Source: a virus
DNA: 20,071 bases
Strand: one strand, 5' to 3'
IMG/VR virus record: IMGVR_UViG_3300021178_000169
Span: 1 to 20,071 of that record
The position numbers and the translations under genes were made by a program. The notes below the pieces were generated by a model. The model did not search any database. It saw only the letters and a list, made by a program, of their open reading frames with translations, and had not been told where the DNA came from. Each line of letters begins with the position of its first letter. The stretch's first letter is position 1. Shown here piece after piece: positions 1,325-19,186 of this stretch.

Positions 1325-1361
1325 GAGTCAAGTTCCCGCAAAGCGGGAACTTGACTCATGA
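1321..1361. repeat. Perfect hairpin, 19-bp arms, over a stop-start junction
   Basis: Left arm tcatgagtcaagttcccgc (1321-1339), loop aaa, right arm 1343-1361. It holds the last residues and stop of the ParB-methyltransferase and the ATG of the glycosylase gene, with the GGGA that could serve as ribosome binding site inside the stem. Confidence 0.92.
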
Positions 1362-2749
1362 TGGGAGAGCGACTCCATTACACGGGAGTTGAGAAGGGCT
1401 TCGCGGGCAACAGACACGAAGCGCTCCTCAATTTCTAAGCCGAGGACGTTCTGTGGGAGAGCGCCAAGACTTTCGGCTGCGCGGAGGGAGGAGGCGGCTC
1501 CGCAGGTGGGGTCTAGGAAACGGGTGTTTCCATCAACGAGGGCTGCGAAAAAATGGCGAAGCATAGGCTCTGGTTTACATGACGGATGCAGCTTGCGGTC
1601 GCCGGGACCAGAGTAGGAGTCAGCAACAGTCCGAATGAGGGGACGGCGACCTCGGTAAGCCAGAAGGGCTGCTTCATAGGTGTGGCGGGGCCACCGTTGG
1701 CTGTCGCCAACGATACCTGAATTGTCGGATTTGTGCCAAATGAGTGGATATGGATAGAACTCAATGGAGGGGCCTTCCTGCTCAAAGAGTCGCATTGTTT
1801 TCAGAAGGACTTCTGGCTTAGGACTGAGCCAGAACATTAGATGACCAAGTGGAGACAGCAGATGATCCAGATTTTTGACTAGGCACTCCGTGAGAGTCCA
1901 GTAGTCGGCGGCTTGGTCTGAATAGGCGCCTTCTTGATCTTCTGGTTTGAACTGGCCGGCTCCGTCGAAGACGTTTGCCCCATACGGGAAGTCGCAGTGG
2001 ATCAGATTGAAAGAGATGCCTGTGTAGGTTGGTGCCCATTCGAGAAAATTCTCCTGCCTGATTGAGCGCTCCACGGCTGCTCGTGACCAGACAGGCGAGA
2101 CAAGCTCGCCTGTCTGGTCAAGCACATGCACCTGAGTCTGCTGAGGGGTTACTACTCCTTGTAGGGGGGACGACTCGTCTGGCTTAGGTTGTGTTTGCAC
2201 GATCATTGATCGTGCAAACACAGCCATATCATTTATTTCTGTTTCGTCCTCGCGCTCTTTGCGCCGCCTTATCAGGTTGCGAGCCTCATTGATGTTAGTC
2301 GCCTTATTCACTCGCGGCTCTTTGAGATGGGCCGCCACAAGGAGGATGGTGGAGATGTAGCCTGCATCGATTGAGAGAGCCTCCGCTGTCATGCGCTGGT
2401 TCCAGGAGGGGTCGGCCTTCCCATAGAGGTAGTGGAGTTCGGCAATGGCTCGGGCGGAGTCCTGCCATGGGAGGTCTTTCCGCTTAACATTCTCTTCAAG
2501 CTCAATGACTTTCAACTCGTCAGTGTTTAGGTCATCTACCCAGCGGACTGGAATGGTTGGAAGGTTAAGCGCCTTGAATGCTTCCCACCTGCGCTCACCC
2601 GCAATCAGCTGGTAGTCCTTAGTCACAATTATCGGGTTGATGAGGCCCACCCTCTTAATGCTGGCCTGGAGAGCGGGGTCCGGCTCTAGCTTCCGTCTTT
2701 GACGAGAGTCTCTTTTAACCCAGATGAGGGATAGTGCAATGTCAGGCAT
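1328..2749 (-). CDS. ParB-like N-terminal domain fused to DNA N6-adenine/N4-cytosine methyltransferase
   Basis: 473 aa. The N-terminal half is a ParB/Spo0J-like domain: LIAGERRWEAF at 48-58 (the GERR motif), ENVKRKDL at 86-93, then a helix-turn-helix-like stretch to about 165. The C-terminal half is a beta-class methyltransferase: catalytic motif IV appears as DFPYG (253-257) ahead of the S-adenosylmethionine motif DPTCGAASS (413-421). Such fusions are known in phages and probably methylate phage DNA for protection or control; the target site cannot be read. The linker (about 168-235) is low in complexity and carries two perfect hairpins (2084-2120 and 2190-2222). A third covers the last codons, the stop and the next start. 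Only two bases separate this ATG from the upstream stop. Confidence 0.85.
   Translation of the reverse strand: MPDIALSLIWVKRDSRQRRKLEPDPALQASIKRVGLINPIIVTKDYQLIAGERRWEAFKALNLPTIPVRWVDDLNTDELKVIELEENVKRKDLPWQDSARAIAELHYLYGKADPSWNQRMTAEALSIDAGYISTILLVAAHLKEPRVNKATNINEARNLIRRRKEREDETEINDMAVFARSMIVQTQPKPDESSPLQGVVTPQQTQVHVLDQTGELVSPVWSRAAVERSIRQENFLEWAPTYTGISFNLIHCDFPYGANVFDGAGQFKPEDQEGAYSDQAADYWTLTECLVKNLDHLLSPLGHLMFWLSPKPEVLLKTMRLFEQEGPSIEFYPYPLIWHKSDNSGIVGDSQRWPRHTYEAALLAYRGRRPLIRTVADSYSGPGDRKLHPSCKPEPMLRHFFAALVDGNTRFLDPTCGAASSLRAAESLGALPQNVLGLEIEERFVSVAREALLNSRVMESLSHHESSSRFAGT
2084..2120. repeat. Perfect hairpin, 16-bp arms, in the ParB-methyltransferase linker
   Basis: Left arm tgaccagacaggcgag (2084-2099), loop acaag, right arm 2105-2120, translated as DQTGELVSPVW between the two domains. 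Confidence 0.9.
2190..2222. repeat. Perfect palindrome, 16-bp arms, in the ParB-methyltransferase linker
   Basis: Left arm 2190-2205, one central base, right arm 2207-2222, extendable by a G-U and two G-C pairs to 2187-2225. Translated around FARSMIVQT, 67 bases from the other linker hairpin. Confidence 0.9.
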
Positions 2750-16004: not shown

Positions 16005-16242
16005 CTGTGGGCTCCTTCTGGCTGGGTAGGCCGAATACAATGCCGCGATCATACTGCCATTCGAGGGCGATGCAATCGCCGCCGTCTGTTATGATGACGC
16101 GGTGGGTAATGCCAAGGCGGGATGCGACATTACGAGTGTAGTGGTTAAATGCGTTCATGGCTTCTTCGGCTGAGACGAATGTGCGAACCTTCTCGTAGGA
16201 GCCGTCTTTGAAGAATTGGATGACACTGAACTCGTTAGCCAT
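15997..16242 (-). CDS. Conserved phage hypothetical protein, 81 aa
   Basis: 81 aa: FSVIQFFKDGSYEKVRTFVS, then FNHYTRNVASRLGITHRVIITDGGDCIALEW. I recognise this layout (DG.YE.VR.FV, RVIITDGGD) from hypothetical proteins of many tailed phages, always small and without known function. It is coupled to the VWA-like gene through TAATG and to the ParB-like gene by an 8-base overlap. Confidence 0.72.
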   Translation of the reverse strand: MANEFSVIQFFKDGSYEKVRTFVSAEEAMNAFNHYTRNVASRLGITHRVIITDGGDCIALEWQYDRGIVFGLPSQKEPTDD

Positions 16243-17165
16243 TAGTCGATTGTCTCCTCGAGTTTTAGTGGGTCGTGCTCGGCCAGCTCACGTTTGAGCC
16301 ATGCTTCGGGGTTGGTCATGGACTCGTCGGCGAGATGCAGGCCGGGCAATGCTAATGTTTCGGTGACGTGGGGCCACATGGGCGCGCAGAGGACTTCCAT
16401 TTCGTGACGCGAGAGGGCGCGGTTGATGCCGAATGGCCACCTGCCTATGAAGTCGTGGTACTTGGACTCGAGGCCGAAGAGGATGTTGCGCACGAAGGCT
16501 GGGTGCGTGAGGCAATAGGAGGCTGCGGATAGGTCTAGTGGGCTGGTTTCGATCTTGGCGGCTACGCATACGGCGTTGGGACCGCGGCTGTAGGACGCGG
16601 TGCTCTCATCGGCTGCGCCAAAATCCATTGCCCACAGTTCTATGGGGCGGTGCGCGGAGAGAGCACGGACCAAGGCCAGGATTGCAATCCCTCGAGCGCG
16701 CACCTGCGCGCTCGAGATGCCGCCTGAGATGCCGAGATCTACCATGATTGCGAGGGGGGCTGAGTCCACTTGGTGCTTTGTCCGGGTGCGCATGTTGAGA
16801 GGCTGGCCCGCGATGTAGGCGGGGATGTTTGGGAATGCGCCGGAGACGTCATCGGTCCAGATGGCGCGGGTGGAGGGCATGGTGATGTGCTCCTCCATGC
16901 GAGATAGGAGTGCGTCTGAGGCTGCTACGGCGGACTGGTCGCCGGTGAAACAAAGATTAATTGCGGCTTCGGTGTCAATATTCATGTTCCAGTCGGCAGA
17001 GGTGTATTTGTTTGGCAAGTTGCTTCTTCTGGCGAAATCGCCCAGCTCGCTGGGTGATTGAGCCAGAATGTAGTGGACGCTACGGCCGACGAGGCCAGGG
17101 ATGGTTGAGATCCCCCGCCCGTTTAGGACGGGGGATAGAGAGCGGGTGTGGCGGATTATGGTCAT
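16242..17165 (-). CDS. VWA-like / DUF7192-type protein, probable partner of the AAA+ ATPase
   Basis: 307 aa. The core APLAIMVDLGISGGISSAQV at 136-155 is where a von Willebrand A domain has its metal site (DxSxS). Here it reads D143-L-G145-I-S147, so the first serine is glycine, and metal binding may be altered. Downstream ILALVRALSAHRPIELWAMD fits the next VWA helix and strand. The N-terminal part (SVHYILAQSPSELGDFARRS) resembles phage DUF7192 proteins. It follows a CobS-like AAA+ gene through three small genes, as MoxR/CobS ATPases pair with VWA/CobT partners. ATGA overlap upstream. Two hairpins lie inside the gene. Confidence 0.68.
   Translation of the reverse strand: MTIIRHTRSLSPVLNGRGISTIPGLVGRSVHYILAQSPSELGDFARRSNLPNKYTSADWNMNIDTEAAINLCFTGDQSAVAASDALLSRMEEHITMPSTRAIWTDDVSGAFPNIPAYIAGQPLNMRTRTKHQVDSAPLAIMVDLGISGGISSAQVRARGIAILALVRALSAHRPIELWAMDFGAADESTASYSRGPNAVCVAAKIETSPLDLSAASYCLTHPAFVRNILFGLESKYHDFIGRWPFGINRALSRHEMEVLCAPMWPHVTETLALPGLHLADESMTNPEAWLKRELAEHDPLKLEETID
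16691..16716. repeat. Perfect hairpin, 11-bp arms, within the VWA motif region
   Basis: Left arm ctcgagcgcgc (16691-16701), loop acct, right arm 16706-16716. It is translated just after the metal-site loop as SAQVRARG, a conserved part, so it may be partly codon-driven. Confidence 0.8.
17110..17136. repeat. Hairpin with one mismatch near the VWA-like gene start
   Basis: Arms of 11 bases with a single C-A mismatch (17118 and 17128) and loop gttta, 29 bases inside the gene, encoding the PVLNGRG segment. Confidence 0.65.
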
Positions 17166-17377
17166 GGGAGCTGGGTGCTGACTTTGTAGGATTTGCCTCG
17201 GCCGGTTGTGATGAGGCTGGAGTCGTCGTCGAATATGTAGATTATTGCGCTGGAGAAGAATGAGCGCGTGATTTCTGCTTTGCGACGGCGGGCGAGAGTG
17301 GAGAGGGCAATTGTTTTGGTGGAGGAGTTGAACTCCGTCAAAACTTGCTCGGCGATGGTGGGGAATGTGAGGGTCAT
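17162..17377 (-). CDS. Hypothetical protein, 71 aa
   Basis: 71 aa, beginning MTLTFPTIAEQVLTEFNSST. A helix, then ALSTLARRRKAEITRSFF, then a beta part (AIIYIFDDDSSLITTGRGKSYKV). The ATG at 17375-17377 overlaps the previous stop as ATGA; the long open frame to 17749 is an out-of-frame reading. Part of the CobS-VWA cassette by position only. Confidence 0.62.
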   Translation of the reverse strand: MTLTFPTIAEQVLTEFNSSTKTIALSTLARRRKAEITRSFFSSAIIYIFDDDSSLITTGRGKSYKVSTQLP

Positions 17378-17736
17378 TGGGCTTCTCCGATGGCCGCAGC
17401 CATTGCGGCTTTCATGGCTTTGCGGGGGTGGTAGGAGCGGTGAAGGGCGGTGACGCCGGAGCCGTTTGCGAGGAGGGCGACTCGTGCGCCGGTGGAGAAT
17501 AGGTAGACTTGCCACCACTCGCCGTTTATTTTTGTTGCGCCTGTGCGGCGTGCGCCGAGGATGGTGGCGGTCTTGACGGCGTTGTGGTAGGCCTCGTAGG
17601 TGTCGAGACCGCGAGTGTGGTAGAGGGTGATAGAGTTGTCGTCGGGGTTGTGGACGGCTGTGTCGCCCCAGACTGAGACCATGAAGGACTCGAATGATGG
17701 GGCGGTGATGGTGGCTGGGTTGGGTAGGCTGATCAT
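17374..17736 (-). CDS. Hypothetical protein, 120 aa
   Basis: 120 aa: SFESFMVSVWGDTAVHNPDD, then NSITLYHTRGLDTYEAYHNAVKTATILGARR and GEWWQVYLFSTGARVALLANG. It looks like a compact beta-alpha domain and recalls small phage proteins of unknown function. The start at 17734-17736 has GGAG before it and an ATGA overlap. A cofactor role for the ATPase-VWA pair is only suggested by position. Confidence 0.65.
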   Translation of the reverse strand: MISLPNPATITAPSFESFMVSVWGDTAVHNPDDNSITLYHTRGLDTYEAYHNAVKTATILGARRTGATKINGEWWQVYLFSTGARVALLANGSGVTALHRSYHPRKAMKAAMAAAIGEAQ

Positions 17737-17984
17737 TCTTTTTCTCCATTTTGCGGACATGTCGCCCGAAGGGCGACTGGCTGCTCTCCCCAATTGGACT
17801 GGATGCCGTTGATGTCGGTTATGATGGTTTCGCCGTAGCGAGTGTGCTTTTGGAAGCGGCGAAGAAGGGTGTTGATTGTATAGTTGGGACGCTTGGAGAT
17901 TGGGGAGGTGGTTATGCGGACGTACCAGTAGGGGGCATACCATGTGGCCTCCAGGCGGCCTTTTGGGCTGGTGAGGAGGATCAT
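17733..17984 (-). CDS. Hypothetical protein, 83 aa
   Basis: 83 aa: MILLTSPKGRLEATWYAPYW, then YVRITTSPISKRPNYTINTLLRRFQKHTRYGETIITDING. It is beta-rich with basic loops and no known family. The start at 17982-17984 overlaps the CobS-like stop as ATGA. The small hairpin at 17761-17777 is encoded near its C-terminus. Confidence 0.62.
   Translation of the reverse strand: MILLTSPKGRLEATWYAPYWYVRITTSPISKRPNYTINTLLRRFQKHTRYGETIITDINGIQSNWGEQPVALRATCPQNGEKE
17761..17777. repeat. Short perfect hairpin, 7-bp arms, loop GAA
   Basis: Arms gtcgccc and gggcgac around gaa, within the last codons of the 83-aa gene. The shortest member of the group I list with confidence. Confidence 0.6.
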
Positions 17985-19186
17985 TGTAGGAGACTCCGCT
18001 TGTCTTGTGGGATGTTGGCGAGATATGTGAGTTCGGCGGCTTGGTCTGGGGTGAAGCCGGACTGGATTAGGGCCGCACCCGCGATGGTGTGGCGGGGATC
18101 TATGATTACCTTTAGGCCAGCCTTTTGGACGGCGTGGCGCGCTGCTTGCACGCGACGGGTCCATGCGGGGTTGCCGCCGATTAGAAGCTCGAAGGGCTCG
18201 TCGTAGGGCCATGAGATTTTGACGGGGAAGCGGGAGAGGAATGCTGCGTCTATTTTGACGCGGCCGACGTAGTCGGCTGTTGCGCCTAGGCCCCATGTGT
18301 TGGCGGTGGCTAGGATTATGGAGTCGGGATGACGGGGCATTAGGCGGTCGGCGAAGTCGCATTCGCCGTTGGCGAGGGCTGCGTTGAGGGCGAGGAGGGC
18401 TGAGTTTTCGGAGGAGTCGACATCGTCGAATTGGTAGACGGCTGGGATTGTGTAGCCCTCGCGGAATGGGGTGCTGTGGTAGGTGCCGCCTGCGTCGCGG
18501 AAGCCGATGAGTTTGTGTTCCATGCTGACCGCGCCGTTGAAGAAGAATGGCAAATTCAATGCCTTTGCGAGCTGGCGGCCGCCCGTGGTTTTGCCCGATC
18601 CGGCTGGGCCAGCTATCCAGATGTTGGGATGGTAGCCATCGGACTGGCGTGATGCGGCGGCGCGGAGGAGGGTCTCGAATTTGGGATGCTTGTGGCCTTC
18701 GGGGACTGACCATGTGTCCAGGCCGTTGTTGATTGTGATTTGAACAGCTCGAGCTTGCGAGAGCTGTGCAAGGGCTTCGTCCACTGAGGCTGATAAGGAG
18801 TCGATCTTTTCTTCGAGGGATGAGATTGCGTTGGCGTGGGCCAGCTGCTCGTTTCGCAGGGATGTGGACATTTCGGCTTTAAGCTTGCTTAAGGACGAAA
18901 TGGCCACGACGTGGTTGGAGCCGATTTGGGCGATGGCTGCGTCGAGGCGGTTTTTGAGCTTGAGGAGTGCGTCGGACCCACCAATGGAATTTCCATCCTC
19001 GGGGGTTGAGAAGTTGGGGATGGGCAGGTCGTCGTCGAGGAGGCCGAGCATTTCCTCGGCTGATTTGTGGGTGCGAGCTTGGGGTTTGTTTAGGGGGTCG
19101 CGGCCGGTGCCGCTGCAGCGATAGCAGGTTTCGCCGTATTTTTTGCCGAGTCCGTTGCAGCGGACGCAAAGTTTGGGAGGTGACAT
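17981..19186 (-). CDS. CobS/MoxR-like AAA+ ATPase with DnaJ-type zinc-finger N-terminus
   Basis: 401 aa. Residues 7-14 (CVRCNGLG) and 21-28 (CYRCSGTG) are two CxxCxGxG zinc motifs as in DnaJ. A coiled coil follows (about 73-145), then an AAA+ core: Walker A GPAGSGKTT (193-201), VYQFDDVD (250-257) in the Walker B place, sensor 1 TAN (294-296) and an arginine finger in DAAFLSRF (313-320). MoxR/CobS ATPases work with VWA proteins, and one lies three genes downstream. Phages often encode proteins annotated as CobS; whether this one inserts metal, remodels proteins or acts on DNA is unknown. Start and stop overlap neighbours by TAATG and ATGA. Confidence 0.82.
   Translation of the reverse strand: MSPPKLCVRCNGLGKKYGETCYRCSGTGRDPLNKPQARTHKSAEEMLGLLDDDLPIPNFSTPEDGNSIGGSDALLKLKNRLDAAIAQIGSNHVVAISSLSKLKAEMSTSLRNEQLAHANAISSLEEKIDSLSASVDEALAQLSQARAVQITINNGLDTWSVPEGHKHPKFETLLRAAASRQSDGYHPNIWIAGPAGSGKTTGGRQLAKALNLPFFFNGAVSMEHKLIGFRDAGGTYHSTPFREGYTIPAVYQFDDVDSSENSALLALNAALANGECDFADRLMPRHPDSIILATANTWGLGATADYVGRVKIDAAFLSRFPVKISWPYDEPFELLIGGNPAWTRRVQAARHAVQKAGLKVIIDPRHTIAGAALIQSGFTPDQAAELTYLANIPQDKRSLLQ

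Follow-up and report, generated by a model that had tools for sequence, protein, structure and literature searches.

What does a bacteriophage gain from an AAA+ ATPase gene that is followed, a few small genes later, by the gene of a VWA-like protein with an odd metal motif, and do the small genes belong to the same machine? The question is raised by the virus record IMGVR_UViG_3300021178_000169 (IMG/VR class; host type bacteria), which was analysed here as a window of 20,071 nucleotides (nt) and for which a megablast search with the window found no near-identical phages in GenBank. All five genes of the cassette lie on the minus strand, in the order ATPase, three small open reading frames (ORFs) and VWA-like gene (Table 1). 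An earlier sequence-only reading had described them as coupled by ATGA overlaps, and the 4-base overlap is indeed present at 4/4 internal junctions; the outer junctions, with the upstream gene at 19186 and the downstream gene at 16242, have one base in common (TAATG). Our results make it probable that the cassette is a phage-borne remodelling machine of the MoxR-clade AAA+/VWA type, in which the finger that docks the VWA protein on the ATPase has been kept and the metal-dependent grip on the target has largely been lost.

The ATPase and DUF7192 genes form a conserved unit

The pair was followed through 89 de-duplicated ATPase loci, including the window. Of these, 80 are IMG/VR loci retrieved with one conserved ATPase pattern and alignment (92 passed, 80 kept) and nine are phage records picked by hand from tblastn lists; the sample is thus not random. 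Rows were dropped where they repeated the window itself (L001), the contig of L003 (L004 and L015), L005 (L030) or, as its IMG copy, the L011 phage (L081), and L002 was excluded from the ATPase loci because its contig, which begins with the VWA gene, holds no ATPase. A gene of the Pfam family DUF7192 comes next downstream on the same strand in 85/89 loci, and the four exceptions are on contigs that end at most 316 nt past the ATPase stop. When the ATPases are clustered at 90%, DUF7192 follows in 59 of the 62 clusters and the remaining three end early, and the pair is also carried by all three of the bacterial-genome contigs found. The ATPase and DUF7192 genes are a real, conserved and co-oriented unit, whose nearest relative to the window copy (L003) has 76-78% identity to the window VWA and ATPase proteins.

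The ATPase matches phrog_249 in PHROGs (label 'porphyrin biosynthesis'; expect value (E) 4e-42), and a profile of 12 family members searched against PDB chains found midasin at E 5e-45, CobS at 2e-17, CbbQ at 1e-10 and NorQ at 1.5e-7. Judged by its motifs, it is a MoxR-clade AAA+ protein with Walker A, Walker B, sensor 1, arginine finger and sensor 2, apart from an Asp in place of the Walker-B Glu. The key residues in Walker A and at D254, N296, R319 and R365 are kept in at least 87/89 loci and T200 in 83/89; G228 (89/89) and G234 (88/89) fall at what we take to be the site of the helix-2 insert. The Asp at residue 255 is confined to the window and L003 (D-D in 2/89 loci, D-E in 87/89), and this substitution may slow ATP hydrolysis in the window lineage. 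In Sinorhizobium phage phiM5, gene 65 (L006:1349-1546) is nested out of frame within the ATPase gene, and its annotation records detection of the product in the particle proteome.

The VWA-like protein was assigned by sequence search to DUF7192 (PF23822; E 5.6e-18, 65.7 bits, cut-off 27), the one Pfam family that it matches at E 1 or lower, and to phrog_1909 in PHROGs (E 2.5e-30). Pfam found no C-terminal effector domain in it, and no DUF7192 protein was found in 14 control genomes. An AlphaFold2 model built from a 49-sequence alignment reached a mean predicted local distance difference test score (pLDDT) of 87.7, and in VIA comparisons its best match was the NorD VWA domain (Z 8.8, root-mean-square deviation 6.7 over 203 residues), followed by the MIDAS domain of Rea1 (Z up to 7.2) and then by other VWA and integrin-type domains. 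Since Foldseek alone gave nothing significant, a second, remote member (L069, 18% identical to the window VWA) was modelled as well (pLDDT 87.6), and its top nine VIA rows were all NorD, Rea1 or human MDN1 (Z 5.6-6.7). In a viral structure library, the window model found other DUF7192 proteins first and then CobT-like phage VWA proteins. Both models thus predict a VWA fold for DUF7192, and the main argument from fold is that two remote members each single out VWA domains of AAA+ partners, NorD and Rea1/MDN1, as their best solved matches. Together with the phrog_249 assignment, the PDB profile matches and the 85/89 loci, these fold matches bear out the earlier proposal that a CobS/MoxR-like ATPase is paired with a VWA protein. 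Second DUF7192 copies occur in mycobacteriophage Faith1 (L010:7485-8336, 3.9 kb downstream of the ATPase) and in L016 (6681-7577, in tandem with the first).

Metal motif and putative docking finger

The sequence-only reading had pointed to an altered metal motif, D-L-G-I-S, and the motif is present at residues 143-147. On its DxSxS part, the protein appears to lack a canonical metal ion-dependent adhesion site (MIDAS; DxSxS...T...D). Conservation was examined in 49 VWA members, picked by eye for diversity, in which the first position of the motif is D in 23/49, E in 10/49 and N in 9/49, a complete DxSxS occurs in 2/49 and DxTxS in 9/49. A metal site peculiar to the window phage was rejected on these grounds: going by the alignment, the odd motif is a decay found throughout DUF7192 and not a trait of this cassette.

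A different part of the protein is better kept. Directly before beta-1, the window model has a strand-helix-strand element (residues 101-130) in which G109 is found in 49/49 members and G120, P122 and M125 in 48/49 each, and residues 105-126 carry 2.43 bits per position, against 1.63 for the DxSxS pentapeptide and 1.52 overall. According to excerpts of two papers, a finger of NorD that includes a helix (residues 403-448) enters the pore of NorQ, and NorD MIDAS mutants still bind NorQ and have lost activity on the target (PMC13036017, PMC9976466). The published residue numbers suggest that the NorD finger directly precedes the NorD DxSxS, and the VIA alignment, which pairs model residues 74-299 with NorD 382-645, fits such a placement. 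The NorQ-NorD system, which serves nitric oxide reductase maturation, would resemble the window pair in its AAA+ clade, its VWA fold and, where the NorD finger lies, a strand-helix-strand element ahead of beta-1, with positions aligned by range only; in contrast to NorD, the window VWA has no NorD N-terminal domain or long linker, its DxSxS is degenerate and identity in the fold alignments is 8-10%. Midasin/Rea1 (MDN1) gives the best ATPase sequence match in the PDB and the second-best VWA fold match, but in the window the two parts are separate genes, there is one AAA module per chain and DxSxS is not conserved.

Several observations weigh against the proposed machine. Residues 206-230 nearly match the finger block in conservation (2.24 bits), so the contrast holds against the DxSxS motif and not against the whole domain, and D211 is Asp or Asn in 48/49 members, which leaves room for an unorthodox metal site. 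The finger is assigned from its position and secondary structure in single-chain models, and in the L069 model each strand beside the helix is just two residues long. With the window model, Foldseek found no PDB match at E 0.001 (best 0.025), and a PDB sequence search with the VWA profile returned chance matches only. The VIA scores, near or below 8, fall where the tool warns that a match may reflect no more than a common arrangement; this is offset solely by the consistency of the matches, and the alignments behind the two models have some sequences in common. The identity of the target, finally, is a guess from genome position.

If the target is not gripped through metal, other parts of the pair come into question, and the N-termini are the most variable of these. 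The window ATPase begins with two CxxCxGxG motifs, CVRCNGLG and CYRCSGTG, which had been read earlier as a DnaJ-type zinc domain. The central zinc domain of DnaJ has four such repeats and two zinc sites. The window protein has half that number, and the Pfam DnaJ model matches it at E 0.066 and 13.9 bits, under the cut-off of 32.7; what its sequence suggests is a likely zinc knuckle of DnaJ type and not the full domain. Among the 89 loci, CxxCxGxG occurs at the ATPase N-terminus in three (window, L003 and L088) and other CxxC stretches in seven; the counts cover the whole frame back to the preceding stop codon, and some CxxC may therefore precede the true start. In a motif search, a TGRTFDHRDRLKQLGGRW-like module was found on the VWA protein in 16/89 loci and on the ATPase in one (L005), and Pfam identified it as DUF5710 in one protein, at 19 bits and under the cut-off of 26.5. 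The occurrence of one module type on either partner hints that both partners serve one target.

The machine that we propose would work as follows. The ATPase would form a hexamer with the VWA protein sitting in its C-terminal mouth; the finger would enter the ATPase pore, by analogy with the NorD finger in NorQ; and ATP turnover would twist or pull the VWA protein along with anything bound to it. The metal-dependent grip shows little conservation and some of the least variable residues belong to the finger, so the target is probably bound by other surfaces or by attached modules, for which the DnaJ-like zinc knuckle of the window ATPase, other CxxC N-termini and, in other phages, the DUF5710-like domain on the VWA protein are candidates.

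Table 1 Features of the ATPase-VWA cassette in the window (aa, amino acids)
Feature	Position	Strand	Details
Predicted MoxR-clade AAA+ ATPase, 401 aa, phrog_249	17981..19186	-	Walker A GPAGSGKT; Walker B D-D (E255D); sensor 1 N296; R319; R365; N-terminal double CxxCxGxG putative zinc motif
Small ORF 1, 83 aa, orphan, within the ATPase-VWA slot	17733..17984	-	
Small ORF 2, 120 aa, orphan	17374..17736	-	
Small ORF 3, 71 aa, orphan	17162..17377	-	
DUF7192/phrog_1909 protein, 307 aa, predicted divergent VWA domain of AAA+-partner (NorD/midasin) type, degenerate MIDAS	16242..17165	-	
Strand-helix-strand element directly before beta-1, VWA codons 101-130, putative AAA+-pore finger	16776..16865	-	G109, G120, P122, M125
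Degenerate MIDAS motif D-L-G-I-S, VWA codons 143-147	16725..16739	-	

Genome neighbourhood and possible targets

The sequence-only reading had named a capsid, a host complex or a cofactor pathway as possible targets, and the neighbourhoods, which vary by phage group, indicate none of them. In the window, the recognisable neighbours are DNA polymerase-like, ParB-like/methyltransferase and Sak4-like proteins and an exonuclease. Elsewhere, the cassette stands antiparallel among head-connector and tail-connector genes in up to 17 of the 62 clusters (those with the most frequent neighbour families; two-sided flanking was not confirmed per cluster), with a terminase-like gene nearby on the opposite strand in 7/62 and an exonuclease downstream in 6/62. 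Such an unfixed position would be expected of a moron-like cassette, and because of these shifting positions our first guess is that the machine acts on a host protein or complex that is altered during infection. A known defence or counter-defence system was considered and rejected: PADLOC matched IetA and VakA at E 4e-4 or weaker in three ATPases and gave no match for the other five proteins. Two window genes outside the cassette were also noted. One (1328-2749, minus strand) joins, by its PHROG matches, a ParB-like N-terminus to a DNA-methyltransferase-like C-terminus; the other is the downstream gene P0006 (15997-16242, minus strand; 81 aa), which contains an RVIITDGGD stretch and has relatives in L002 and L003 only, with no family or phage-record match.

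The alternative that survives best, though we hold it to be doubtful, is that the pair is a chaperone of virion assembly, acting on tail or head like p618/p892 of ATV. The precedent and the published proposals for such a role (PMC7911831, PMC7824862; excerpts) speak for it, as does the company of head-connector and tail-connector genes described above. In that group, however, the structural neighbours are all on the opposite strand; outside it, the pair is found close to terminase or recombination genes, and in the window its neighbours belong to replication and recombination. A part fixed in assembly would be expected to show a more constant linkage.

Considerably less probable is that the pair is a viral cobaltochelatase CobS-CobT, a product of auxiliary metabolic genes aiding the host CobN in the insertion of cobalt for vitamin B12. 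The phrog_249 label, the presence of CobS among the nearest solved relatives of the ATPase and the CobT-like phage proteins among the fold neighbours of the VWA protein are in line with this, and cobST clusters have been reported to be widespread in tailed viruses and proposed to hijack CobN (PMC8651126, excerpt). Against it, midasin outscores CobS for the ATPase profile, the window VWA has 307 aa where phage matches named CobT or cobalamin biosynthesis have 607-733 aa, and the sole Pfam match is DUF7192, with DxSxS missing here and in 47/49 members; by its sequence, the protein would not be a CobT subunit with a canonical MIDAS.

Phage pairs of the MoxR-vWA and CobST kinds have been published before, and as far as excerpts of that work go, the DUF7192 pair appears to be a variant of them. 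The excerpts report two MoxR subunits for the AAA+/VWA pair of 0305phi8-36 (PMC2147016), pairs in Hardycor1 (PMC7911831) and in group 2.2 jumbo phages (PMC7824862), a cobS/cobT pair in CRP-810 phages (PMC11288001) and cobST in tailed viruses of eight orders (PMC8651126); the general MoxR-vWA mechanism, and ternary conflict systems with VMAP, iSTAND, FtsH and beta-propeller components, are covered in PMC7159879. The viral pairs, those of HVTV-1 and ATV included, share with ours adjacent or nearby AAA+ and VWA genes, but the DUF7192 proteins differ in their size of about 300 aa, their degenerate DxSxS, their own Pfam family and their varied N-terminal modules, as far as a still incomplete direct comparison of the proteins goes. 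Closest in layout are genes 64/63 of phiM5 and genes 25-22 of Rhizobium phage P106B, with the same two families in the same order. The phiM5 pair differs from ours in lacking both annotated slot genes and a DnaJ-like N-terminus. In P106B the slot likewise holds two small genes that overlap, but they bear no relation to the small genes of the window, and the P106B VWA has a DUF5710-like N-terminus. In the open-licence literature, we found no paper on DUF7192 and none on cobS combined with phage, auxiliary metabolic and porphyrin biosynthesis.

The slot between the two genes

The three small ORFs look coding because of their codon usage and ribosome sites: the log-odds per codon are 0.39, 0.52 and 0.45 in their own frames, between -0.49 and -0.03 in the five remaining frames and 0.43 and 0.33 in the flanking genes, and GGAG-type sites lie upstream of all three. 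Their products have no match better than E 0.07 in Pfam and PHROGs, and among all six-frame ORFs of 95 sources no relatives were found beyond the window (the lone match, of P0004 at E 0.4, is on the other strand of L068). Homologues were likewise not detected in phage records (best E 0.4) or IMG/VR, the search not extending to plasmids, E. coli genomes and bacterial genome contigs.

The earlier reading took the small genes for a fixed set of partners, to be checked by asking whether the five genes stay together in other phages. The ATPase and VWA genes do, and the small genes do not. The space between the pair, measured as far as the earliest candidate start codon in the VWA frame and thus perhaps slightly underestimated, is 815 nt in the window and 37 nt in L003; it is below 250 nt in 75/85 loci, too short for such a set, and at least 250 nt in 10/85, including the window. 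In these longer slots, the candidate ORFs are unrelated between loci, except for one gene common to L011 and L012 (Rhizobium/Sinorhizobium phages). The slots thus share no gene that might be a third core component of the kind known from MoxR-vWA ternary conflict systems; genes outside the pair were covered by a survey of recurrence within 9 kb. Given the absence of the small genes from L003 and the unrelated contents elsewhere, the space between the pair is best seen as a slot for small passengers, and the three small genes are, by these comparisons, lineage-specific and not fixed parts of the machine. We therefore rejected the fixed five-gene set, and that the ATPase, the three small proteins and the VWA protein form one five-part complex is hardly credible: the 4/4 ATGA overlaps, a common codon usage and slots of 250 nt or more at nine other loci stand against the absence of the small genes from L003 and from every other locus examined, the lack of homologues in phage records and IMG/VR, and slot contents that are unrelated outside the L011/L012 pair.

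Until shown otherwise, the small genes are ordinary phage turnover, and in the proposed machine they would be cargo co-translated with the pair and not required parts. This turnover extends beyond one slot, as small ORFs are also found at other junctions: 67 aa after the VWA gene in L002 (927-1130) and 80 aa before the ATPase in L003 (676-918). At the short ATPase-VWA junction of L003, the ATPase stop codon is spanned by an inverted repeat with perfect 13-bp arms and a loop of 5 nt (L003:2129-2159), which may be a processing signal or a scar left at the slot.

A bolder extension, which we offer tentatively and think unlikely as a whole, is that DUF7192 is a family of MIDAS-poor VWA co-chaperones that kept the docking finger and moved target recognition to exchangeable modules, with the three ORFs as an adaptor or payload set. 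The motor would then be generic, and its target would be re-set by swapping adaptors, such as zinc knuckles or DUF5710-like domains on either partner and slot genes. Should the proposed machine itself prove right, DUF7192, at present labelled only as a domain of unknown function, would gain a fold, a partner and a testable mechanism, and doubt would fall on the 'porphyrin biosynthesis' label that phrog_249 genes commonly carry in phages, mycobacteriophages and Staphylococcus phages with laboratory hosts among them. If the finger works with the MIDAS dispensable, the family would separate the two jobs of the VWA domains that partner MoxR proteins, a topic of the NorQD papers.

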